DNA of 64,000 nt from Acidobacteriota bacterium. Lineage in GTDB: Bacteria > Acidobacteriota > Polarisedimenticolia > J045. This document shows positions 2,855-21,835 of the stretch, piece after piece. The DNA lies in the NCBI GenBank assembly GCA_030949985.1, contig JAUZRX010000017.1, positions 62,001 to 126,000 on the forward strand, written 5' to 3'. The translations under genes were made by a program, and so were the position numbers. Within the stretch, counting starts at the first letter, position 1; each line of letters starts with the position of its first letter. Under the pieces are notes generated by a model. It saw only the letters and a program-made list of their open reading frames with translations, was not told the DNA's origin and did not search any database.

Positions 2855-4204
2855 TCAGCCCAACTCCCGCTCGAACAGCGTCACCAGTTCGTCGGCCAGG
2901 TCTTCCACCAGGCGGGCGTCGGCGCCTTCGATCATCACCCGGGCCTTGGGTTCGGTCCCCGAGTAGCGCACCACCACGCGGCCTTCGCCGGCCATCCGGC
3001 GTTCGGCGTCGGCGACAGCGGCGGCCAGGACGGGATGGTCGGCGATGGCGGGCTTCGAGCGGACCCGTACGTTCTTGAGTACTTGGGGGTAACGCCGGAT
3101 GCGCGCCGCTGCCTCGAGCAGATCGCCGGCGCCCTGCTTCCACATCCGGGCCAGGGTCAGGGCGGTGAGCACCCCGTCGCCGGTAGGGGCATAGTCCATC
3201 AGGATGACGTGGCCCGACTGCTCGCCCCCCAGGCTGAGGTCGCGCCTACGGAGGGCCTCGAGTACGTAGCGGTCACCGACGGGAGTGCGGAGCATGGCCA
3301 ATCCCTCGGCCTCGAGGGCTTTCTCGAGGCCCAGATTGCTCATCACCGTGGCCACCACGGTGGCTCCCTTGAGCTGCCCCGCCCGGTGCAGGGCGCACCC
3401 CATGTAGTAGAGCAGGAAGTCGCCGTCGAGAATCGTGCCGTCGCCGGCAATCGCGATGCAGCGGTCGGCGTCGCCGTCGAAGCAGAAGCCCAGGCTCGCA
3501 CCGCTGCTGCGCACCAGCTCCGCGGCCACCTCCGGATGGAGCGAGCCGACGCCGTCGTTGATGTTGCGGCCGTCGGGCGCGTCGCCGGTGACCACCACCC
3601 CGGCTCCCGCCCGGCGGAAGGCTTCGGGGCCCACCTGGTGGGCCGCGCCGTGGGCGCAGTCCAGGGCCACCAGGACGCCCTCCAGGTCGACCCCCTCCCG
3701 GCAGTGGTCCAGGAAGGCCAGGTACTCCTCGAGCAGATGATCGTGGTCGTCGGTCGCGGCGTCGTCACCGACCGGCGGCGCCACGTCCCCGAGGGCCTCC
3801 ATTTCCGCTTCGATAGAGGCTTCCGAGTGATCGGAGAGCTTGCTGCCGTCGGCGGCGAAAACCTTGACGCCGTTGTCCTCGTAGGGGTTGTGGGAGGCGG
3901 AGACCATCAGTCCCGCCGCGAAGTCGTCCCGGCGTGTGAGCAGCGCCAGGCCCGGTGTGGGCAGCACGCCGGCGCTGACCGGCTCGCCCCCGCCGTCACG
4001 GATGCCCCGGGACAGGGCGGCGGCGATCCAGCCGCAGGACTCGCGGGTATCCCGCCCCAACAGCACTCGCGGCGGCGCCGATCGTTCCGGCGCGCGAGCG
4101 AGGATCACCGCCAGGGCGCGCCCGAGGCGGTAGAGCGTGGATCCGTCGAGGGGGGGGGTGCCCGCCACACCCCTCATACCGTCGGTGCCAAAGAGTTTTC
4201 TCAT
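2855..4204 (-). CDS. glmM: Phosphoglucosamine mutase
   Basis: 449 residues, normal for GlmM, which converts glucosamine 6-phosphate to glucosamine 1-phosphate for UDP-GlcNAc synthesis. All alpha-phosphohexomutase motifs are visible: the active-site serine loop VSASHNP (phosphoserine about residue 104), the metal-binding loop DGDADR, the sugar-binding loop GGEQSGH and the phosphate-binding loop RYSGTEPKARV. The gene follows cdaA and cdaR, the conserved cdaA-cdaR-glmM arrangement in which CdaA and GlmM are known to interact in Firmicutes. A run of nine C (coding strand; 4150-4158 on the plus strand) spans codons 16-18 close to the start and is a possible slippage site. glmS and glmU lie elsewhere in this window. 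Confidence 0.97.
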   Translation of the reverse strand: MRKLFGTDGMRGVAGTPPLDGSTLYRLGRALAVILARAPERSAPPRVLLGRDTRESCGWIAAALSRGIRDGGGEPVSAGVLPTPGLALLTRRDDFAAGLMVSASHNPYEDNGVKVFAADGSKLSDHSEASIEAEMEALGDVAPPVGDDAATDDHDHLLEEYLAFLDHCREGVDLEGVLVALDCAHGAAHQVGPEAFRRAGAGVVVTGDAPDGRNINDGVGSLHPEVAAELVRSSGASLGFCFDGDADRCIAIAGDGTILDGDFLLYYMGCALHRAGQLKGATVVATVMSNLGLEKALEAEGLAMLRTPVGDRYVLEALRRRDLSLGGEQSGHVILMDYAPTGDGVLTALTLARMWKQGAGDLLEAAARIRRYPQVLKNVRVRSKPAIADHPVLAAAVADAERRMAGEGRVVVRYSGTEPKARVMIEGADARLVEDLADELVTLFERELG

Positions 4205-4232
4205 GGTCGTCGTGGATCTCCCCGACCCGTTC

Positions 4233-5144
4233 CTAGTTGGGCCGTACCTTCACCCGGGCCGGTTCGACCTTCACGTCGGAGACCAGCGCCAGCTCGTCGG
4301 TATCAAGATTGCCCCAGGAGAGGGTGACGGCCACCTCGCCGGCCTTGCTGCCCAGGGCATCGACCGATGCCGTGGCCTGGAGCTGTTCGCTGAGAGGGGT
4401 GAAGAGTGAGGGGGGGGCAAGGAAGCTGAGGGTCACGGCCTCCGGCTCCACCCGCCATCCCGGTTCACTGGGACGAACGGTGAGTTGCAGCGAGAAGGAC
4501 GTGGGCACTTCGCGGATCTGCACCCGGGCCCGCACCGTGGCCGGGGCCAGGCGCACGTTGGCCTCGGGCAGCACCAGCTTGAGCATTCGCTCGCTGCTGC
4601 GGGTGAGGGCGCTGAGATCGAAGGGTTCGGTGGGCACGTTGCGCACGGAGAGCACTTCTTTTTCGGGGCCGCTGACCTCCACGTCCGAGGGCTTGACCTC
4701 GCTCTCCACGACTTCGTAGCCGTCGGGAAGCTCCCCGCCCAGAACCAGCACCACGGGGACCAGGGTGGTCCGACGGGCGTCGAGGGTGACGCTGATCAGG
4801 GCATGGACCACGCTGATGTCGGAGACCCCCCGGGGGACCCGCCGGATTTCCTCGGGAACCACGGCCACCCGGTGGCTGCCGGGGGCCAGGTGGGAAACGT
4901 CCACCTCGGCGTAGATCTCGTCCGGTGCGACCCGGTCGAGGATCGTGGAACTGCCGGAGAGCTGAATGCCCACCATGGCCGGGGCGGGGTTGGTGACGAT
5001 CAGATCGGGCCCGGTCTTGAACCGCACCGGCACCTCGTACCAGCGCACTTCCGGCGAGCGGGTCACCACGCTGGCCCAGAGGATGAAGGCCAGCAGGAGG
5101 GAAAGCAGCTTGAGGCCCATGTTGCGCCGGAAAAAACCCCTCAT
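4233..5144 (-). CDS. cdaR: YbbR-domain protein, CdaA regulator
   Basis: 303 residues with one N-terminal membrane segment (GLKLLSLLLAFILWASVV) and an extracytoplasmic beta-rich region of about three YbbR-like repeats, each a roughly 80-residue unit with an xVPV or xVPxxxxx strand. CdaR-type proteins bind the diadenylate cyclase CdaA at the membrane and modulate c-di-AMP production. The ATG overlaps the cdaA stop by four bases, and glmM follows after 28 bases. No catalytic residues are expected or seen. The identification rests on the N-terminal anchor, the YbbR-type repeats and the cdaA-cdaR-glmM order. Confidence 0.9.
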   Translation of the reverse strand: MRGFFRRNMGLKLLSLLLAFILWASVVTRSPEVRWYEVPVRFKTGPDLIVTNPAPAMVGIQLSGSSTILDRVAPDEIYAEVDVSHLAPGSHRVAVVPEEIRRVPRGVSDISVVHALISVTLDARRTTLVPVVLVLGGELPDGYEVVESEVKPSDVEVSGPEKEVLSVRNVPTEPFDLSALTRSSERMLKLVLPEANVRLAPATVRARVQIREVPTSFSLQLTVRPSEPGWRVEPEAVTLSFLAPPSLFTPLSEQLQATASVDALGSKAGEVAVTLSWGNLDTDELALVSDVKVEPARVKVRPN

Positions 5145-5995
5145 GAAAACAGTCCCGCCCGCGCCGAACGCGATTCGAAGAAGCCCGGCGAGGCTTCACC
5201 CTCGGCGCCTTCTCCTCCGAGCTGCTCTTCGAGGAAGGCGCGCAGGGCTCGCCCGTCCAGATCCGTGAGCAGGGCGCCGTCGACCGCGACGGAGATCTTG
5301 CCCCGCTCCTCGGAGACCACCACCGCCACCGCGTCGGTTTCTTCGGTCACGCCCTTGGCCGCCCGGTGGCGGGTGCCGAAATCCCGCGAGGTGTAGGGGT
5401 CGGTGGTCAGGGGCAGAAAGCAGCTCGCCGCCTTGATCCGGCCCTCGCTGATGATCACTGCCCCGTCGTGCAGGGGCGTTTTGGGCGTGAAGATGTTGAT
5501 CAGCAGGTCGTAACTCACCCGGGCGTCGAGTTCGATGCCGGTCTCGATGTAGTTCTTCAGGCCGTGGGTTCGTTCGAGCACGATCAGGGCGCCGATGCGT
5601 CTCGAGCCCATGGCCGAGCAGGCCAGGGAGATGTCCGCGATGATCTGGGCCCGGACGTCATGCTGCCGAAAGCGGCGGAAGGGATTCCGGCCGAACTGGG
5701 CCAGGGCCTGCCGGATGGGGTTCTGAAAGATCACGATCACCATGAAGGCGCCGTAGATCAACACCTGGCTCAGGACCCAGTTTACGGCCTGGAGCCGGAG
5801 CGGTGAGTAGAGCCCGGTCAGGGCCCACAGCAGCACCACGGCGAGCAGGCCGTAGACCATCTGGACGGCACGGGTGCGCCGGATCAGCAGCATCAGCTGG
5901 TAGGTGGCGAACCACAGCACGAGAAGATCGAGCAGGCCCCGGAGCTGGGTGAGCTGGGCGGCGATCAGCCAGAGGAAGTCGAGGATCTCGCTCAC
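5141..5995 (-). CDS. cdaA: Diadenylate cyclase (c-di-AMP synthase)
   Basis: 284 residues with three N-terminal membrane segments in about the first 95 residues, followed by a DisA_N/DAC catalytic domain. The two catalytic signatures are present: LHDGAVII (DGA motif, metal/ribose) and GTRHRAAKG (RHR motif, triphosphate binding). The enzyme makes cyclic di-AMP from two ATP at the inner face of the membrane. The gene starts with GTG, which overlaps the folP stop by four bases (GTGA). It is followed immediately by cdaR and then glmM. c-di-AMP commonly governs potassium and osmolyte homeostasis and cell-wall precursor supply; the osmolyte operon at 31-35 kb makes the former a reasonable idea here (inference). 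No c-di-AMP phosphodiesterase is seen in the window. Confidence 0.95.
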   Translation of the reverse strand: MSEILDFLWLIAAQLTQLRGLLDLLVLWFATYQLMLLIRRTRAVQMVYGLLAVVLLWALTGLYSPLRLQAVNWVLSQVLIYGAFMVIVIFQNPIRQALAQFGRNPFRRFRQHDVRAQIIADISLACSAMGSRRIGALIVLERTHGLKNYIETGIELDARVSYDLLINIFTPKTPLHDGAVIISEGRIKAASCFLPLTTDPYTSRDFGTRHRAAKGVTEETDAVAVVVSEERGKISVAVDGALLTDLDGRALRAFLEEQLGGEGAEGEASPGFFESRSARAGLFS

Positions 5996-7134
5996 CGTGA
6001 GCCCTCTGCCGGACCGCGGCGGGGCCAGCCCTGGAGGGGTTCGACCACCGCCAGGGCTTGCCGGGTGGCCGCTACGTCGTGGGCCCGGATAATGCGCGCT
6101 CCGGCCAGGACGGCCGCGCAGGCGGCCGCAAGAGAGCCCGCCAGCCTGGCGGCCGGAACCTCCACCCCGCTGCGGAAACCGACGAACATCTTGCGGGACA
6201 CACCCACGAGAATGGGAAAACCAAGGCTCCTGAAGGAGCCGAGCCGCCGAAGGATCTCCTCGTTGCCCTCCACCGACTTGCCGAAACCGACTCCCGGATC
6301 GACGAGGATTCTATCATCCTCGATCCCCGATTCGCGGGCCCGGGCGCTTCTTTCCGCCAGGTGATCGAAGATCTCTTGCAGCAAGTCGTCGTAGCGCGTG
6401 TCGGCCTGCATCGAGCGGGGCTCACCCCGCATGTGCATCAGCACCACCGGGCAGCCCCACTCGGCCACCACCCGGGCCAGCGAGGGATCGGCAAGGGCGG
6501 AGATGTCGTTGATCATGTCGGCCCCCGCCTCGAGGGCCTGCCGGGCCACGGCCCCCCGGCGCGTATCCACCGAGATGCGCAGGGTCGGCAGTTCCCGGCG
6601 GATGCGCCGGACGACGGGAATGACCCGGGCGAGTTCCTCGTCGGTGTCGACGGGTGTGGCGCCGGGGCGGGAGGACTCACCGCCGACATCCACCAGGTCG
6701 GCTCCCTCCTCGGCCATCCGGGCGGCCTGCTCGGTGGCGCGGCCGGGGTCGACGAAGAGCCCGCCATCGGAGAACGAGTCCGGCGTGACGTTGATGATGC
6801 CCATCACCCGCGCGGCGCCTGCCATGTCCAGGGATGCGCCGTCGGCGAAGCGCAGGGGGCGGGGAGCCGCCTCGTAGGCCTCGAGGGCCGCCGCCAGGAC
6901 CGGGCCGGCGGGAGGCGGGAGAAGCCGGGTGAAGTCGAGGAGGGCCCGGGCCGGGCCGGCCAGCAGCAGGTGATCGGGACGTTCGAGAAGACACAGCGGC
7001 GGGTGGCGGCGCTCGAGGGCCGTGGCGATCGCCGTCCGGTGGGCGGGAGGGCAGCGCAGGACCCGGCAGGGGGTGGGCAGGCCCTCGCCCGCGCTCTCGC
7101 ACAGATCCCAGGTCCGCACCCCCGCCGTGGCCAT
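5992..7134 (-). CDS. folP: Dihydropteroate synthase with N-terminal extension
   Basis: 380 residues. The C-terminal two thirds is a complete dihydropteroate synthase: MGIINVTPDSFSDGG (about residue 113 on), DVGGESSRPGA, then INDISAL, a VLMHMRGEP strand, and the DPGVGFGKS loop. It condenses 6-hydroxymethyl-dihydropterin diphosphate with p-aminobenzoate, and is the target of sulfonamides. The first ~110 residues, before the TIM barrel, form an extension of unknown role that E. coli FolP (282 residues) lacks; similar extensions occur in some other phyla. I chose ATG at 7134, which follows the ftsH stop by five bases; the frame is open further upstream but there overlaps ftsH. The stop overlaps cdaA's GTG. 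Confidence 0.93.
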   Translation of the reverse strand: MATAGVRTWDLCESAGEGLPTPCRVLRCPPAHRTAIATALERRHPPLCLLERPDHLLLAGPARALLDFTRLLPPPAGPVLAAALEAYEAAPRPLRFADGASLDMAGAARVMGIINVTPDSFSDGGLFVDPGRATEQAARMAEEGADLVDVGGESSRPGATPVDTDEELARVIPVVRRIRRELPTLRISVDTRRGAVARQALEAGADMINDISALADPSLARVVAEWGCPVVLMHMRGEPRSMQADTRYDDLLQEIFDHLAERSARARESGIEDDRILVDPGVGFGKSVEGNEEILRRLGSFRSLGFPILVGVSRKMFVGFRSGVEVPAARLAGSLAAACAAVLAGARIIRAHDVAATRQALAVVEPLQGWPRRGPAEGSR

Positions 7135-7139
7135 GGGGC

Positions 7140-9065
<1,926 letters not shown>

Positions 9066-10870: not shown

Positions 10871-10939
10871 ACACGCCACGCCCCACCCGCTTCTCGCGCC
10901 CATCGCCGGGGGTGAGGGGGGTGGGGTCGCCAGCGGCAC

Positions 10940-10968
10940 ACTTTACGGGGCGGGGCAGGGAGCGTCAA
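10940..10968 (-). promoter_or_regulatory. Sigma-70 promoter of the tRNA-Met-tilS operon
   Basis: Minus strand: -35 TTGACG (plus-strand 10963-10968), exactly 17 bases of spacer, then -10 TAAAGT (10940-10945). It matches consensus at five of six and four of six positions. The expected start point falls about 60 bases before the tRNA 5' end. It is the best sigma-70 match noticed in the window, and could drive the whole minus-strand series from tRNA-Met onwards. Confidence 0.6.
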
Positions 10969-11142
10969 CTCCGCGACACCCGGTCGGCCAAGGGGCAGAC
11001 AGGGCGGGGGAAAGGACGCAAATTGACCCTGGTTCGTTTCTCCGGTCCAGGAAGTCCGGGGCAAGGGGTGGCGCGCCGCCGAGCGGGCGGCCTCCCGGGT
11101 CGGTCAACCCCTGGCCTTCAGCCGGCGCCTTGCCGCCGGGGG

Positions 11143-11826
11143 GGGCGTTACGTGGCCCTGGAGGTCCGTGATACCGGCGTGGGCATGGACGAGGAAACCT
11201 TGGCCCGGGTCTTCGACCCTTTCTTCTCCACCAAGGCCCTCGGGCGCGGTGCCGGACTCGGCCTGTCGAACGCCTACGGCATCGTGCGCCAGGGCGGCGA
11301 TGACGTGCAGGTCTTCTCCCGGGTCGGCGAGGGGACGACCTCTCGGTTGCTCCTGCCCTTCTGCGCGGAGGCGCTCGAAGTCGCGCCCCGGCGACCGCCG
11401 ACGCCCCGGCACGCCGAGGGGCACACGGTGGTGGTGGAAGACGAGCCCTCGGTGGCAGGGCTGATCGGTTGCGTACTCGAGGCAGGCGACTACCGGGTCG
11501 TGTGCTACCCCGACGGGGCGACGGCGGCGCTCGAGGGCCCGCAGGCACCGGCCTACGACCTGTTGATCCCGGACGTGGTGATGCCGGGGATCACCGGCCC
11601 GGAACTCGCCCGACGGTTCGGCGCCAGGCTGGCCGGCCGTCGCGTCCTGTTCCTGTCGGGTTGTGCGGACCCTGCGCGGATCGCTCACGGCTTCGAGGCC
11701 GGCCGTGTACCCCTGTTGCGCAAGCCCTTCTCCGCGGCCGCCCGGCTCGAGGCGGTCCATCGCGTGCTCTGCGGGAAGATCCTCGCATCACGCGCTTCCG
11801 ACCTGTTGGGATCGGTCGACTCTGTC
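11143..11826 (+). pseudogene. Truncated hybrid histidine kinase (HATPase remnant plus receiver)
   Basis: The reading frame holds the C-terminal half of a histidine-kinase ATPase domain: DTGVGMD (G1 box), FDPFFSTK (F box), GAGLGLS (G2 box). A receiver domain follows, with VVVEDEPS, phosphoacceptor Asp in PDVVMPG, and LRKPF lysine. The H box, the dimerisation domain, any sensor domain and the N box of the ATPase are missing: the recognisable sequence begins right before the G1 box. What precedes it is Arg/Gly-rich and resembles nothing. The frame also runs about 80 bases into the convergent end of recQ. It is most likely the 3' remnant of a hybrid kinase whose 5' part was deleted. No intact partner is next to it, although a response-regulator gene lies on the far side of recQ. 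Confidence 0.7.
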
Positions 11827-11827
11827 T

Positions 11828-13882
11828 TCAGGGGGCCGGCGCGCCGCGGATCAGATCCAGCAGGGCCGGGCCGAAGCGCTCGGCCTTGGTCGGGCCGATA
11901 CCCTTGACCGCCAGCAACTCGGCCGCGGTGCGGGGGCGGGTGCAGGCCAGGGCGTCGAGTGTGCTGTCGTGGAGGATCCTGTAGGCGGGGATTCCGCGGC
12001 GGCGGGCTTCCTCCGCCCGCCAGGCCCGCAGGGCTTCCGCCAGCGGGGAGGCGCCGGCTCTTCGCCGCCGGCGGTCTTTCCGCCCGGGCTCGCGGGGCGG
12101 ACCGGTGGCGGCGGCCGCCTGCCCGGACGGCAGGGCCAGCTCCGGTCGCCGGACGCCCCTCATCACCTCGGCGCCGATCTCCGTCAGGGCCAGCACGAAC
12201 TGTCCCGGCCGGCCACCTTCCAGGGTGCGTCGTTCGATCAGCCCCGCATCGGCCAGGACACCGAGTAGTTTCTGGGCCTCGTCGACGCTCAACTCCGCCA
12301 GGCGTCCGTAGGTCGGCAGGCGATCGAGGCGCCGGACCAACAACTCCCTCGAGCGGCTGCCGGTGAGCATCTGGGCGATGCGCCGGGCGCCGAAGCGGCC
12401 CTCGAGGCGGGCCACCCCCGACAGGGCGACGCGCACCCGTCGATACTCCTCGTCGTCGAGGGGGCGGCCCCGGTGCCGGTGCCAGCCCAGGCAGTTGTCG
12501 CAGGTGCCGCACTGAAGGGCTCGACCGCCCTGGGCCGAGCCGGCGAAGTAGTCGTAGATGAACTGGGAGCGGCAGCCGGGGGAGAGGGCGTAGCGGATCA
12601 TCGCCTCGAGACGCTCCCGGTCGCGTTCGGCCTTGGCTTGCTGGATGTCCAGGTCGAGGGGCAGGGGGCCATGGCCCGGCCGCACCCCGGCCAGATCGGC
12701 GGCCTGGCGCAGCAGGCGTACGGCGGTCTCCACCCCCGCCTCGTCGGCGCCCGGGAAGGCGGAGGGGGGCAGCTCGTCGTCCACTGTCGCCAGGTCGGCC
12801 CAGACCCGGCGGAAGAGGGCCGGGGAGGGGTTGGAAAGGGCGATGAAGAATTCCTGGGTCCGTACGTCGGCCCCGGAGTAGAGCAGCAGGCAGAGGGATG
12901 GTTTGCCGTCCCGGCCTGCCCGGCCCGCTTCCTGGTAGTAGGCCTCGACGCTGCCCGGCACCTCGACGTGGACCACGAAGCGGATGTCGGCTTTGTCGAT
13001 GCCCATGCCGAAGGCGTTGGTCGCGGCGATCACCTCGAGCTCGCCGCCGGTGAAGGCTTCCTGAATGGCGTGACGCCGGGCGTCGGGCAGGCCGCCGTGA
13101 TAGCAGTCGGCGCGCAGGCCCTGGGCGGTCAGCCACTGGGCCCAGCGTTCGGTGCTGCGGCGGGTCGCCGCGTAGATCAGCCCCGGCGTGCCGCACTCCC
13201 GCAGCACCCTCGAGACCACCACCTGCTTGTCGACCGTCCGTCCCACGCGCTCGACCCCGAGAGTCAGGTTGGGGCGCTCGAAGCCGGTGACCAACTCCAG
13301 GGGATCGCGGAGGGAGAGCTGGTCGATGATGTCCCGGCGGGTGCCGGGTGTGGCGGTGGCCGTGAAGGCCGAGACCGGAACGCCCAGGCGTTTTTTGAGG
13401 GGGCCCAGGCGCCGGTAGTCCGGCCTGAAGTCGTGGCCCCACTGGCTGATGCAGTGGGCCTCGTCCACGACCAGCCGGGCGACCCGGCAGCGGTCGAGCA
13501 GGGCGAGGAAGCCCTCGCTGGCCAGTCTTTCAGGAGCCACGTAGAGCAGGTTCAGCGCGCCCTCGGCCAGGGCCCGCCGCACGTCTCGCCGGGCCTCCCC
13601 CCCCTGGCCGGAATGGATCGCGGCGGCCGCGATGCCGGCGCCCGCCAGAGCGTCGACCTGGTCCTTCATCAGGGCGATCAGGGGCGAGACGACGAGAGTG
13701 ACGCCATCGAGCAGGGCGGCGGGCAGTTGGTAGCACAGGGACTTGCCGGCCCCGGTGGGCATCACGGCCACCAGGTCCCGGCCGGCAAGAATCGCCGCCG
13801 CGGCCTCCCGCTGGCCGGGGCGGAAGGAGGCATGTCCGAAATGCCGATCCAGGCCGGCCGCGAGACGATCCCATGGCTCCAT
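11828..13882 (-). CDS. recQ: ATP-dependent DNA helicase RecQ
   Basis: 684 residues, a 3'-to-5' DNA helicase of recombination and repair. Walker A PTGAGKS is at 42-48, the DEAH box ([23 protein letters not shown] region, written here only as [15 protein letters not shown]) is at about 138-152, and the helicase C domain has the arginine-finger region [10 protein letters not shown]. The RecQ zinc cluster (C-x16/17-C-x2-C-x2-C type, ending CGTCDNC) and winged helix follow. An HRDC domain (about residues 605-675, with [16 protein letters not shown]) closes the protein. There is a short Arg/Lys-rich linker (RKDRRRRR) before the HRDC domain. It is transcribed divergently from the response regulator at 13977; the tail overlaps the kinase remnant. 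Confidence 0.96.
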
Positions 13883-13976: not shown

Positions 13977-16153
<2,177 letters not shown>

Positions 16154-16177: not shown

Positions 16178-16210
16178 CAGGGGACGCCTTGCGGCGTCCC
16201 CTGTTGTTTG
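16178..16210 (+). terminator. Intrinsic terminator of gdhA
   Basis: Perfect 11-bp stem CAGGGGACGCC / GGCGTCCCCTG with a TTGC loop, then TTGTTTG. It lies 25 bases after the gdhA stop. Confidence 0.8.
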
Positions 16211-16264
16211 CGGCTGCTACAATTCCGGCGGGCCGGTTCTTCCCACGGCGCCGGAAGGGAAACC

Positions 16265-19219
16265 ATGGAAGCCACGCCGAAGACGACCTTGCCGCCACGG
16301 ATGCGAAGACTCGAGAGCCTCCAGGAGTTGATGCCCCGGCGGATTCAAAACATCCTTCTGGTCTCGAGCCTCTACGATTCGTTCATCCTCGAGCGGGATG
16401 GTCAGCTCACCGAACTCTTCCTCAGCGAATTCCTCGATCTCAACCTGCGGCACACTCCGGGGCTCCGGCATGTCTCGAGTGGTCGTGAGGCCCTGCAGGC
16501 CCTGGAGGAGGGACGCTTCAACCTGGTGATCACCTCGCTCAACGTCATCGATATGAACGCCCTCGAGCTGGCTCGCGAGGTCAAGGCGCGCACCGAGGAC
16601 GTGCCGGTGATTCTGCTCGGCTACGACAGCCGTGAACTGAAAGACTTCGTCAGTCGTCACGACGTCTCCGACATCGAACGGGTCTTCCTCTACCAGGGAG
16701 ACGTGCGGATCTTCCTGGCCATCGTCAAGTACATGGAAGACCGTCTCAACCTCGAGCACGATACGGCGGCCGGTGTGCAGGTCGTGATCCTGATCGAGGA
16801 TTCGATTCGCTACTACTCTTCGTTCCTGCCGCTGATCTACGCCGAACTCTTCCGCCATTCTCACAGCGTGATCTCCGAGGGGGTCAACCTGACCCACAAG
16901 ATCCTGCGCATGCGGGCGCGGCCGAAGATTCTGCTTTGCAGCAGTTTCGAGGAGGCCTGGGAGTACTTCTCGCGCTACAACGAAGTGATCCTCGGGGTGA
17001 TCTCGGACATCGAGTTCCCTCATTGGGGTCGATTGCAACCCGATGCCGGGGTCGAGTTCGCCCGCAAGGTGCGCGAAGCGTGGCCGGACATTCCCGTGCT
17101 CTTGCAGTCTTCACGGCCGGAGAACCGGGTGCTGGCGGAGCAGGCCGGCACCTGTTTCGTACTCAAGGACTCGCCCACGCTGCTCAACGACCTGCGGGAG
17201 TTCATGGTCGACAACTTCGCCTTCGGCGATTTCGTCTTCCGTCTGCCCGACGGCACAGAGGTGGACCGGGCTCACAACCTGCGCTCTCTGCTGGAGAAAC
17301 TGCGCACGGTGCCGGTCGAGTGCATCGGCTACCACGGTGAGCGCAACCACTTTTCCAACTGGCTCAAGGCGCGCACGGAATTCGCGCTGGCCGAAAAGCT
17401 GCGTCCCCGGAAGGTCTCCGATTTCGAGACCCTCGAAGACATCCGGACCAACTTGATCGAGGCCATCGAGGAGTACCGCCGGGAGCGGCAGAGCGGCGTG
17501 ATCTCCGACTACGATCCCGACAGTTTCGATGCGCAGCATGGTTTCGCCCGGATCGGCGGCGGCTCGCTGGGCGGCAAGGCGCGGGGCCTGGCCTTCGTGC
17601 GCTACCTGCTCTACAACTACCCCGTCGACCGCCTTTTCGACGGCGTCGTGATTTCCGTACCGCCGGCGGTGGTGCTGGGTACCGACGTCTTCGATCGTTT
17701 TCTCGACGAGAACGACCTGCGGGACTTCGCCCTCCACTGCGACGACGACCACGCGTTGACCGAGCGCTTTCACGCCGCTTCTTTTCCGGAAGACGTGCGG
17801 CAGGACCTGGCCGCGTTTCTCGCAAGCGTGACCACGCCCCTTGCGGTGCGTTCGTCGAGCCTGCTCGAAGATTCTCAGTACCAGCCTTTCACCGGCGTCT
17901 ATGAAACCTACATGCTTCCCAACGTCGAGGCGGATCCCGGCATTCGACTCGAGCGGCTGATCGCGGCGATCAAGCAGGTCTATCTCTCCACGTTCTCCTC
18001 CCAGGCCAAGGCCTACATGCGCGCCACGCCCTACCGCCTGGAAGAGGAGAAGATGGCGGTGATCGTGATGAAGGTCGTCGGTGAGCGTCACGGCGGGCGC
18101 TTCTACCCCGACTTCTCCGGTGTGGCCCGGTCCTACAACTTCTACCCCACGCCGCCTCTCGCCGCGGACGACGGCGTGGCGTCGGTGGCCCTGGGCATGG
18201 GGCGCATGGTGGTCGAGGGGGGCGCGGCCCTGCAGTTTTCTCCGCGCTTCCCCCGCCACGTGCTGCAACTCTCCTCGGCTCGCGACATGCTCGCCGGTTG
18301 CCAGCGCACCTTCTGGGCTCTCTCGCTCGAGGAAGAGACCGGCGCCTGCGCCTTCCGCGAGAAGGAATATGGTCTCGACGCGGCGGAGGAGGACGGCACC
18401 CTGGGCCGCCTGGGCTCGGTCTACTCACCGGAGAACGACGCGATCTACGACGGTATCTCCCGTCCGGGCGTGCGGCTGGTCAGTTTTGCCCCGGTGCTCA
18501 AGCACGGGGTCTTTCCCCTGGCGCAGATTCTCGAGATCCTGCTCGAGTTGGGAAGCTGGGGCATGAACTCTCCGGTGGAGATCGAGTTCGCCGTCAATCT
18601 CTCGGTTCCCCGGGGCGCTCCCCAGCAATTCGCCATGCTGCAGATGCGGCCCCTGGCCCTGGCCCGCGAGACCGAGGCCCTCGAGTTGGGGGACCCGTCC
18701 CCCGAGTCCCTGGTCTGCCGCAGCGACAACGTGCTGGGCAACGGCCGCTTCCGGGTCTTCGACCTGCTGGTGGTGGATGCCAACACCTATCGCCGGGAGG
18801 AGAGCCGGGCGGTGGCCGAGGCGGTGGCGCGGATGAACACCCGCCTGGTGGGGGAGGGGCGCTCCTATGTGCTGATCGGCGTGGGGCGGTGGGGCTCGAA
18901 GGACCCCTGGCTGGGCATCCCGGTCACCTGGGACCAGATTTCCGGGGCGCGAACCATTGTCGAGGCGAGCTTTCGGGACTTCCAGGTCGCCCCTTCCCAG
19001 GGGACCCACTTCTTTCAGAACCTGACTTCCTTCAACGTCGGTTACTTCACGGTCAACCAGGGCGGCGTCTCCTTCGTGGACTGGGACTGGCTCGCCCGGC
19101 AGAAGGCCGTGGTGGAAGAGGGGCCGGTAAGACTGCTGTCTTTCGACCAACCCCTGGTGGTCAAGATGAACGGCCGCCGGGGAGAGGGGTTGATCTCCCG
19201 GCCCGGCCAGGGCGACTAA
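16265..19219 (+). CDS. Receiver-receiver-PEP/pyruvate-binding (PPDK_N) fusion protein
   Basis: 984 residues, cytoplasmic (no signal or membrane span). Three parts are visible. Residues ~28-165 are a receiver-like fold in which the phosphoacceptor aspartate is replaced (Ser91 in VITSLNVIDMNALEL), so probably a pseudo-receiver. Residues ~170-315 are a second receiver with Asp248 (VISDIEFP) and Lys301 (FVLKDSP). From ~425 comes an ATP-grasp domain like the N-terminus of PEP synthase/pyruvate phosphate dikinase: GGGSLGGKARG at 431-441, LAVRSSSLLEDSQ, FTGVYETYMLPN and a QMRPL end motif. The phosphohistidine swivel domain and PEP-binding barrel of true PPDK/PpsA are absent. It may be a phosphorylation-controlled ATP-dependent phosphotransferase; its substrate is unknown. 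Start ATG 16265 follows GGAAGGGAAACC. Confidence 0.8.
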   Translation: MEATPKTTLPPRMRRLESLQELMPRRIQNILLVSSLYDSFILERDGQLTELFLSEFLDLNLRHTPGLRHVSSGREALQALEEGRFNLVITSLNVIDMNALELAREVKARTEDVPVILLGYDSRELKDFVSRHDVSDIERVFLYQGDVRIFLAIVKYMEDRLNLEHDTAAGVQVVILIEDSIRYYSSFLPLIYAELFRHSHSVISEGVNLTHKILRMRARPKILLCSSFEEAWEYFSRYNEVILGVISDIEFPHWGRLQPDAGVEFARKVREAWPDIPVLLQSSRPENRVLAEQAGTCFVLKDSPTLLNDLREFMVDNFAFGDFVFRLPDGTEVDRAHNLRSLLEKLRTVPVECIGYHGERNHFSNWLKARTEFALAEKLRPRKVSDFETLEDIRTNLIEAIEEYRRERQSGVISDYDPDSFDAQHGFARIGGGSLGGKARGLAFVRYLLYNYPVDRLFDGVVISVPPAVVLGTDVFDRFLDENDLRDFALHCDDDHALTERFHAASFPEDVRQDLAAFLASVTTPLAVRSSSLLEDSQYQPFTGVYETYMLPNVEADPGIRLERLIAAIKQVYLSTFSSQAKAYMRATPYRLEEEKMAVIVMKVVGERHGGRFYPDFSGVARSYNFYPTPPLAADDGVASVALGMGRMVVEGGAALQFSPRFPRHVLQLSSARDMLAGCQRTFWALSLEEETGACAFREKEYGLDAAEEDGTLGRLGSVYSPENDAIYDGISRPGVRLVSFAPVLKHGVFPLAQILEILLELGSWGMNSPVEIEFAVNLSVPRGAPQQFAMLQMRPLALARETEALELGDPSPESLVCRSDNVLGNGRFRVFDLLVVDANTYRREESRAVAEAVARMNTRLVGEGRSYVLIGVGRWGSKDPWLGIPVTWDQISGARTIVEASFRDFQVAPSQGTHFFQNLTSFNVGYFTVNQGGVSFVDWDWLARQKAVVEEGPVRLLSFDQPLVVKMNGRRGEGLISRPGQGD

Positions 19220-19324: not shown

Positions 19325-21835
19325 GTGGGAACGAAAAGCTTTTCTCTGTCGGCCAGGTGGACCTTGGTCTGCGTCTCGATCACGGTTGCCTGCATCGCGG
19401 GAGGGGTCGTCCGGGCCGACCATGACGAGTGCCTGGCCTGTCACGAAGACAGCGGGTTGACCCGGGACGATGGGCGGTCGGTCTACGTCGACGCCGGGCA
19501 CTTCGAACAAAGCATCCACGCGGGCATGGAGTGCCTCGACTGCCACGACCAGGGTGCCGACTACGACGATCTGCCTCACTTCGCCGTCTATCGTCCGGTG
19601 GACTGTTCGAGCTGTCACGACGATGCGGTGAGGACCTTCGAGGGCAGCGTTCACGGTCGTGCGGTGGGGAGGGGCAAGCCCGGTGCGCCGGGCTGCGTGG
19701 ACTGCCATGGCGCCGGTGGCGATGCGCACTACCTGCAGCCCCTGGATCCGCGGTCGGTGGAGCGGACCTGCCGGCGTTGCCACCAGGACCAGGCCGAGCG
19801 TTTCGACGGCAGCATCCACCGGCAGGCCCTGGCCGCGGGGCAGAACGCTCCGGGCTGCATCACCTGTCACCCGGTACACGCTTCCCAGGCGCCTCCGTCG
19901 GCGGGCGCGGTCGGCCGGCTTTGCGAGGCCTGCCACCAGGGAGCGATGGACGAACTGACGGCCAGCGGTCATCTCGGCCCCCTTCCCGCCGGGGGCGTGA
20001 TCTCCTGTTCCTCGTGCCATGACGTGCATGGCGTGGTCAAGCCGACCCTCGACCAGGGCACCCTCGAGGCCTGCAGCCAATGCCACCCCAGCTACGACCG
20101 GCTCTTCGAGGGGTCGGTGCACGAGGCGATCTTCGCCTCGGGAGAGATGAACTGCCTGTCCTGCCACCGGGCGCACCAGGTCAAGGGGCCCCGTGAGGCC
20201 ACGGGCTTCGGCTGCGGCCGCTGCCACCAGGAGGCCGAGGCGGCCTACCGCCGCAGCGCCCACCGCCACGCTCACCTGCAGGGCAGCCAGGTGGCGGCCG
20301 AGTGCGGTAGTTGCCACGGCGGCCACCACGTCCTGGCTCCGAGTGATCGGGACAGCCCGGTCAACCACTTCAACATCCCCAAGACCTGCGGTCACTGCCA
20401 CACCGACGAGCCGGTGATCACCGAAGATTACGTTCGCCTGCCGGTGAGCCTGCCCAGCTACCTGCAGTCGATTCACGGCCAGGGTTGGCAGGACGGCGAC
20501 ATGACCGCTGTCTGCACCGACTGCCATGGAAGCCACGAGCTCTACGGTGCGGCCGATCCGGCCAGCACGGTGGCCCGCGAGAACCTGGCCAGGACCTGCG
20601 GCCAGTGCCACGCGGAGATCGCGGCGGTCTACGAGGGATCGGTGCACGGCAAGGCGCTCGCGCACGGGATCGGGGACGCCCCGTCCTGCACCGACTGCCA
20701 CGATGAGCACCTGATCATGCCGGTGGACGACGATTGCTCGGCGGTCAGCCGCTCGCGCCAGGCCACCGAGACTTGCGGGCATTGCCACGAGGACGAGGAG
20801 ATGAACGCCCGCTACGCCCTGGCTCCCAATGTGGTGGGCAGCTATCTCGACAGTTACCACGGCTGGGCGATCAAACGGAATTGCGAGGCGGCGGCCTCCT
20901 GCGAAGATTGCCATACCAGCCACGACATCCGCTCCCCCCTCGACCCCGACTCTTCGGTGCATCCGGACCACGTGGTGGCCACCTGCGGCCGTTGCCACGA
21001 GAACACCAACCCCGAGTTCGCCCGCTCCTACACCCACCTGGAGGCCGGTCGGGCGTGGCGGCCCCACGATTACGTGCGCTGGGTCTACATCTGGCTGATC
21101 GTACTGACCCTCGGTGGGATGGGGCTGCACAACCTGCTGATCTACGTCAAGGAACTCAGGGGGCACTATCGGCAGTACCATGCCCAACCCACCGTAGAGC
21201 GCATGACGCGCTCGGAGGTCCTCCAGCACCTGGTGCTGGCGCTGACCTTCTCGACCCTCGCTCTGACGGGCTTCGCGTTGCGCTTTCCCGATGCCTGGTG
21301 GGCCCAGGCGCTGAGTGCCGCGGGCATGAACGAGGGACTGCGACGCGTCATCCACCGGGTGTCCGCGGGGCTGATGGTGGCCGCTTCCCTGCTGCACATC
21401 GGTTACCTGCTGCTGACCCCGCGGGGCCGGAAGCTGCTGTGGGCGATGCTGCCGCGGCTTTCCGATCTGCGCGAGGCGGTGGGCAACGTCGCCTACTACC
21501 TGGGCCTGCGTCCGAAGCCCCCGGCCTTCGGCTACTTCGATTACACCCAGAAAGCCGAGTACTGGGCCCTGGTATGGGGGACGATCGTGATGAGCGTCAC
21601 CGGCTTCGTGTTGATGTTCCCCGATCTGTCCACCGAGTACGTGCCCGCCTGGGTCGTGCGCGTCTGCGAGACCGTGCACTTCTACGAGGCGATCCTGGCG
21701 GTCGGCGCGATCATCGTCTGGCACCTGTTCTTCACCGTATTCGTCCCCCGCGAATATCCCATGAGCTGGATCTGGATCAGTGGGCGGATGCCCCGCAAGG
21801 ACTTCGAGCACCATCACCCCCGCGGCGACCTGTAG
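19325..21835 (+). CDS. 19-heme cytochrome c fused to a membrane cytochrome b
   Basis: 836 residues with an N-terminal signal (hydrophobic core about residues 13-30). The region from residue ~36 to ~570 contains 19 CXXCH heme c-binding motifs (my count), interspersed with distal-His patterns such as GSVHG and SIHGQ. From ~585 to the end come five membrane spans with histidines spaced like the b561/FdnI-type diheme cytochromes (about His 635, 677, 691, 785, 800). The whole is a single-chain electron conduit: membrane quinol or quinone reaction through hemes b, then a periplasmic heme wire. The terminal donor or acceptor is not evident. GTG start with GGAGGCGACCCC ribosome site. It has no oxidoreductase subunit next to it, unlike formate dehydrogenase or Geobacter Cbc operons. 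Confidence 0.9.
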   Translation: MGTKSFSLSARWTLVCVSITVACIAGGVVRADHDECLACHEDSGLTRDDGRSVYVDAGHFEQSIHAGMECLDCHDQGADYDDLPHFAVYRPVDCSSCHDDAVRTFEGSVHGRAVGRGKPGAPGCVDCHGAGGDAHYLQPLDPRSVERTCRRCHQDQAERFDGSIHRQALAAGQNAPGCITCHPVHASQAPPSAGAVGRLCEACHQGAMDELTASGHLGPLPAGGVISCSSCHDVHGVVKPTLDQGTLEACSQCHPSYDRLFEGSVHEAIFASGEMNCLSCHRAHQVKGPREATGFGCGRCHQEAEAAYRRSAHRHAHLQGSQVAAECGSCHGGHHVLAPSDRDSPVNHFNIPKTCGHCHTDEPVITEDYVRLPVSLPSYLQSIHGQGWQDGDMTAVCTDCHGSHELYGAADPASTVARENLARTCGQCHAEIAAVYEGSVHGKALAHGIGDAPSCTDCHDEHLIMPVDDDCSAVSRSRQATETCGHCHEDEEMNARYALAPNVVGSYLDSYHGWAIKRNCEAAASCEDCHTSHDIRSPLDPDSSVHPDHVVATCGRCHENTNPEFARSYTHLEAGRAWRPHDYVRWVYIWLIVLTLGGMGLHNLLIYVKELRGHYRQYHAQPTVERMTRSEVLQHLVLALTFSTLALTGFALRFPDAWWAQALSAAGMNEGLRRVIHRVSAGLMVAASLLHIGYLLLTPRGRKLLWAMLPRLSDLREAVGNVAYYLGLRPKPPAFGYFDYTQKAEYWALVWGTIVMSVTGFVLMFPDLSTEYVPAWVVRVCETVHFYEAILAVGAIIVWHLFFTVFVPREYPMSWIWISGRMPRKDFEHHHPRGDL

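Follow-up and report, generated by a model that had tools for sequence, protein, structure and literature searches.

The gdhA locus and the partner gene

The window, i.e., the whole stretch of 64,000 nucleotides that was analysed, contains a gene for a 984-aa protein, hereafter the partner, which lies directly behind gdhA, the gene for a class I, NADP-specific glutamate dehydrogenase (GDH) (Table 1). The gdhA product reached 759.7 bits against NF006929, for which the cut-off is 536, and the gene ends 111 bp upstream of the partner gene. The partner reading frame, which ends with a stop codon at 19217-19219, has a good ribosome-binding site ahead of its ATG, and this Shine-Dalgarno-like site together with the hundreds of homologues indicates that the reading frame is real. 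A similarity search with the protein alone yielded at least 571 confirmed homologue candidates, and the family is old and widespread. None of the viral relatives was full-length, the best match being Gp139 of Bacillus phage G with partial coverage. A role in anti-phage defence was considered and dropped because PADLOC gave no match.

Table 1. Features of the gdhA-partner locus and of the second pair in the same genome (positions in the window unless stated otherwise).
Feature	Position	Strand	Basis
LuxR/NarL-type response regulator, just upstream of gdhA	13977..14630	+	Pfam; tblastn
gdhA, NADP-specific glutamate dehydrogenase (class I)	14792..16153	+	NCBIfam NF006929; Pfam ELFV_dehydrog
Terminator-like hairpin and T-rich tail between gdhA and the partner gene, CAGGGGACGCC-TTGC-GGCGTCCCCTG TTGTTTGC	16178..16211	+	sequence, hairpin scan
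Shine-Dalgarno-like GGAAGGG before the ATG at 16265	16253..16259	+	sequence
GDH-partner gene, 984 aa	16265..19219	+	ORF, translation, Pfam, 86-sequence family alignment, structure model
Receiver 1, degenerate (residues about 28-165; S34/S35, S91, no Lys)	16346..16759	+	Pfam, residue counts, Foldseek
Receiver 2, intact (residues about 170-318)	16772..17218	+	family alignment, structure model, Foldseek, residue counts
DUF5752 segment (residues 334-409)	17264..17491	+	Pfam
PPDK_N ATP-grasp module (residues 434-804)	17564..18676	+	Pfam, motif alignment, residue counts, profile match to 5hv6/5fbs
C-terminal domain without known relatives (residues about 810-984)	18692..19216	+	GRWGS 874-878, H915; stand-alone model
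Second GDH and receiver-less partner pair	contig 27 of the same genome (locus L090), 3788-7551	-	reading frames overlap by about 10 bp

The gap between gdhA and the partner gene holds a terminator-like hairpin, and 37 of the 62 homologous gaps contain a hairpin that was matched by at most one of 20 shuffles. With a hairpin so often between them, the two genes may not be strictly co-transcribed, and the cell may produce less of the partner than of GDH or express it from a separate promoter. As for the other neighbours, homologues of the LuxR/NarL-type regulator precede gdhA in few loci (six, as found by tblastn). The preliminary description of this DNA had stated that no histidine kinase is adjacent, which is correct for the immediate neighbours; about 5 kb upstream of the partner gene, however, an open reading frame on the forward strand (10912-11907) combines HATPase_c with a receiver and resembles a hybrid histidine kinase. 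It is separated from the partner gene by RecQ, which is encoded on the other strand, the LuxR-type regulator and gdhA, and it is a possible phosphodonor for the partner. Directly 3' of the partner gene, a forward-strand gene (19325-21835) encodes a multihaem cytochrome c (Cytochrome_C7/c3, paired CXXCH) that is fused to a cytochrome b561-type membrane domain.

Domain architecture of the partner protein

The partner is composed, in this order, of a degenerate receiver, an intact receiver, a DUF5752 segment, a PPDK_N ATP-grasp module and a C-terminal domain without known relatives. The preliminary description had proposed a receiver-like fold, a receiver and a PPDK_N ATP-grasp without the PEP domains, and this architecture was confirmed far beyond chance by Pfam, by residue counts in an alignment of 86 family sequences and by Foldseek; the domains that it named all stood, while the DUF5752 segment, the C-terminal domain and the GDH neighbour had been overlooked. 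An AlphaFold model of the full chain, which was based on a 43-sequence alignment, had a pLDDT of 83.3 and a pTM of 0.66, and its best Foldseek match in the PDB was to tandem receivers (PleD 9g85, E 2e-8), with PPDK 5lu4 matching at E 1e-6. Pfam placed Response_reg at residues 67-120 (E 2e-8). In receiver 1, the acidic pair is replaced by S34/S35, Ser being present in 79-81 of the 86 aligned sequences, position 91 is Thr, Asn or Ser with the acceptor Asp gone, and the Lys region is replaced by W/Y-Q-G, whereas E178, D179, D248 and K301 of receiver 2 are present in all 86. The residues that were tested for a response regulator (acidic pair, acceptor Asp and Lys) are thus complete in receiver 2 and lost from receiver 1, as the earlier reading of Ser91, Asp248 and Lys301 had suggested. 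PleD-type regulators likewise carry one degenerate and one intact receiver in tandem, but their output is GGDEF instead of an ATP-grasp module, and the order in the partner, in which the degenerate receiver comes first and the intact one second, was also counted as a difference. The DUF5752 segment (Pfam E 4e-8) is the sole match to this family in the genome.

The PPDK_N module (PF01326) was recognised with an E-value of 2.5e-36 and 126 bits against a cut-off of 27, and the fold was ATP-grasp/PPDK-like according to Foldseek, which answers the earlier question of whether the C-terminal half might not be an ATP-grasp. Within that half, residues 434-804 form the ATP-grasp; the last 175 residues lie outside PPDK_N and make up a conserved domain of their own. 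The family profile matched PDB chains 5hv6/5fbs, which are entered there as 'phosphoenolpyruvate synthase' and which we take to be rifampin phosphotransferase (RPH) chains. Residues K438, R529, E772, E774, Q793 and R795, which align with the PPDK motifs GGKG, VRSG, EF and LQxR, are invariant in the 86 sequences and, judged from this conservation, the ATP-grasp site is likely active. Moreover, K438 and R529 are the equivalents of Lys22 and Arg117, which are required for the function of RPH (PMC4844700). RPH and PEP synthase/PPDK share the same module, including these two residues, with the partner, but the partner has no rifampin-binding domain, no match to the PEP/pyruvate-binding barrel (PEP-utilizers_C) in Pfam across the whole 984 aa and no Pfam, profile or fold match to the phosphohistidine swivel (PF00391), so the absence of the His-swivel and PEP-binding domains that had been noted earlier was borne out. 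Further differences from RPH and PPDK are the receivers and DUF5752 that precede the module, the unrelated C-terminal domain that follows it and the linkage to GDH. Its NCBIfam matches include PigC/RedH-type PPDK_N enzymes and RPH, the latter (RIF_Ptrans_rph) with 23 bits against a cut-off of 999 and over residues 500-611 only; the partner lacks features that define PEP synthase/PPDK and RPH.

The C-terminal domain has its own invariant residues, i.e., S820, GRWGS (874-878), LGIP, E900 and SQG[TS]H915FFQN, the last of which reads SQGTHFFQN in the protein from the window. Receiver-less paralogues, whose cores are 27-40% identical, also contain this signature, though partly varied. The partner carries both features that define the family, PPDK_N and the GRWGS/SQG[TS]HFFQ domain. 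When modelled alone, the domain gave a pLDDT of 92.4 and a pTM of 0.90; it had no fold match in the PDB below E 1e-3 with Foldseek, no sequence match in the PDB and no match in Pfam.

Two explanations for the missing carrier domains have to be weighed here. The C-terminal domain could be a diverged PPDK swivel in which H915 is the phosphohistidine, making the partner a self-sufficient ATP-to-His phosphodonor; H915 is invariant across members with and without receivers, and the PPDK ATP-grasp normally requires a His carrier. Nevertheless, a comparison by hhalign with a profile of about 22 swivel sequences returned a probability of 0.1%, and the confident model of the domain had no Foldseek match to PPDK or enzyme I, which leaves this explanation unsupported and, in our opinion, very unlikely. 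Alternatively, the PPDK_N homology might reflect a PEP synthase/PPDK that has been split, the His and PEP domains being products of another gene, a situation that the preliminary description had asked to be checked in the vicinity of the gene. We consider this scarcely credible and in effect refuted: no stand-alone swivel or PEP fragment recurs as a neighbour in about 100 loci, no split partner was found in the genome, and its PPDK_N, PEP-utilizer and PTS enzyme I domains belong without exception to a complete PPDK on contig 23, to enzyme I on contig 15 and to the two members of the GDH-partner family, with PEP-utilizer swivels occurring solely in the complete PPDK and in enzyme I, both of which lie on other contigs.

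Linkage to glutamate dehydrogenase genes

The homologues were gathered by protein similarity alone, GDH not being a criterion, and the flanks were taken from the matches listed. Upstream sequence of 1.6 kb or more was available for 83 receiver-class genes; among these, a GDH gene lies on the same strand no more than 700 bp upstream in 59 and no more than 3 kb upstream in 65, and 69 have a GDH gene within 5 kb. Beyond this pair, the next commonest neighbour family was found in 8 of about 100 loci, and neither a second conserved neighbour nor a histidine kinase exceeded this number; neighbour cluster 2 was an artefact, made up of antisense frames in the mechanical gene calls. The pairs occur in at least nine phyla, including Acidobacteriota, Ignavibacteriota, Bacteroidota, Actinomycetota, Calditrichota, Gemmatimonadota and Chlorobiota, and also in the candidate phyla Eisen-, Latesci-, Zixi- and Krumholzibacteria.

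A linkage-blind sample of 199 Acidobacteriota genomes, which were drawn evenly and 79 of which have a family member, gave the same picture. These genomes contain 76 class I GDH genes, 47 of which share a contig with a family member; all 47 are no more than 3 kb from it and 42 are in tandem with the partner downstream, a count in which short contigs favour proximity and to which several megabase-sized contigs (e.g., in four of the genomes) also belong. For the gdh2 subclass, which was defined by at least 63% identity to the GDH on contig 27, all 34 of the genes that share a contig with a family member are no more than 3 kb from it and 29 are in tandem, while for more distant GDHs (41-53% identity) the corresponding numbers were five of 13 and none. 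A GDH of class I or of the gdh2 subclass was present in 71 of the 79 genomes with a family member vs. 22 of the 120 without one (Fisher p 6e-25, with relatedness ignored). About 20 Acidobacteriota genomes have a class I GDH and no family member at all, which indicates that GDH can function without the partner. An unknown substrate, as the preliminary description had it, was not supported: the conserved neighbour for which it proposed to search is GDH, and this points to GDH as the target. Some family members (at five loci) have no GDH in the fetched flanks, and their neighbours, among them a metallopeptidase, CysS, a SpoU methylase, a GH32 enzyme and an NtrC-type regulator, have no common theme.

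The genome itself encodes a second family member of 827 aa, which has a helical-looking N-terminal region of unknown family instead of receivers and is located beside another GDH. Receiver-less paralogues, this one included, pair with a second GDH subclass: members of 591 aa are directly downstream of GDH2 in five loci, and the 827-aa type is less tightly linked and usually the next gene along, being directly adjacent in one of 12 cases and within 3 kb in eight. Since the receiver-less members keep the GDH neighbour, the linkage belongs to the core of ATP-grasp and C-terminal domain, and the N-terminal halves are interchangeable inputs. Furthermore, two pairs in a row are found in several Ignavibacteriota/Bacteroidota genomes (loci L029, L057, L060, L065 and L074), in which each partner copy has its nearest relatives among the partners of its GDH subclass in other genomes and not in its own neighbour copy. 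The GDH-partner pairs were duplicated together, each copy keeping its own partner subclass, and this co-duplication, along with the correlation between partner and GDH distances (0.70; Mantel p 0.001), argues for a specific matching of partner to GDH. In these five loci and in L069, two or three different GDH genes form arrays in which two family genes are interleaved. Once close relatives were considered, no GDH residue marked the paired enzymes; S83, M81 and others, which were tried as such marks, follow the phylogeny and are common to two close unpaired GDHs.

Proposed function and known systems

Because its gene is found beside GDH in at least nine phyla, the partner is probably a signal-controlled regulator of nitrogen assimilation. 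That it is, more specifically, an ATP-dependent regulatory phosphotransferase dedicated to GDH, with receiver 2 as its switch, has in our judgement an even chance of being correct. In such a mechanism, the core would bind ATP and recognise the GDH that is encoded next door, PPDK-type chemistry would release AMP and Pi, and the phosphoryl group would be transferred to GDH, or to H915 of the partner and then onward, by which the activity of GDH would be adjusted. Receiver 2, when phosphorylated on D248, would be the input switch, and receiver 1 may be a pseudo-receiver with a structural or dimerising role. A His carrier is normally part of PPDK-type chemistry; as the partner has none, the acceptor could be GDH itself or H915. 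The direct contact with GDH, the enzymatic phosphotransfer, its direction, the target residue and the control through D248 are all inferred. Taken more broadly, many phyla of uncultured soil and sediment bacteria might control ammonium assimilation through a protein-modifying enzyme of a new class, a receiver-gated ATP-grasp of the PEP-synthase type that phosphorylates GDH directly or via a C-terminal phosphohistidine; we put this possibility forward tentatively.

The same linkage could arise if the partner and GDH catalysed successive metabolic steps, in which case the ATP-grasp would activate glutamate, 2-oxoglutarate or ammonia by acyl-phosphate/ligase chemistry, the pair would make a downstream metabolite and the receivers would merely tune it. 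ATP-grasp enzymes commonly make acyl-phosphates and amides, and the linkage spans GDHs of two subclasses. Additionally, PPDK_N enzymes such as PigC/RedH and RPH, which are among the NCBIfam matches, act on small molecules other than pyruvate (PMC4844700). However, the presence of a separate partner copy for each GDH subclass within one genome is more easily explained by protein-protein specificity than by a shared metabolite, and the N-terminal receivers suggest regulation, which makes a metabolic role unlikely. Another possibility is that the partner is not catalytic and that its ATP-grasp is an ATP or energy sensor, which binds GDH and alters its activity or assembly without phosphate transfer. 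This would fit the absence of a PPDK swivel or acceptor domain, and GarA is known to regulate GDH by binding to it directly (PMC12321487). On the other hand, all of the ATP-grasp residues that were checked are invariant, including K438 and R529, whose counterparts are needed for RPH catalysis (PMC4844700), and this exceeds the needs of pure binding. The invariant catalytic residues favour an active enzyme, and we therefore find a pure sensor improbable as well.

The regulatory phosphotransferase would be of interest since GDH is situated at the junction of carbon and nitrogen metabolism, and for most bacterial phyla the control of its activity is little known. If the proposal is true, ammonium assimilation in Acidobacteriota, Ignavibacteriota/Bacteroidota, Actinomycetota and at least five other phyla would share a general point of post-translational control, and the PPDK ATP-grasp engine would have a new use that involves neither a PEP site nor a known phosphohistidine carrier. 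Proteins recognised solely by a PPDK_N model also gain a functional context from the linkage, and a direct test with the two proteins is possible. No earlier description of a receiver-PPDK_N fusion or of its linkage to GDH was found in the full-text literature that was searched, the coverage of which largely excludes subscription journals and preprints. The partner belongs to the PPDK_N ATP-grasp proteins, and there is a substantial chance that it represents a new class of metabolic regulator.

Proteins that are devoted to a single branch-point enzyme of carbon or nitrogen metabolism, which is the role proposed for the partner, are exemplified by AceK, the isocitrate dehydrogenase kinase/phosphatase, GlnE, the glutamine synthetase adenylyltransferase, and GarA/OdhI. 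The last is an FHA protein that acts on GDH and 2-oxoglutarate dehydrogenase (PMC12321487, PMC5448819). In contrast to the partner, these proteins have unrelated folds, none of them being an ATP-grasp or carrying receivers, and the linkage to genes for GDHs of the small hexameric type distinguishes the partner from all of them.
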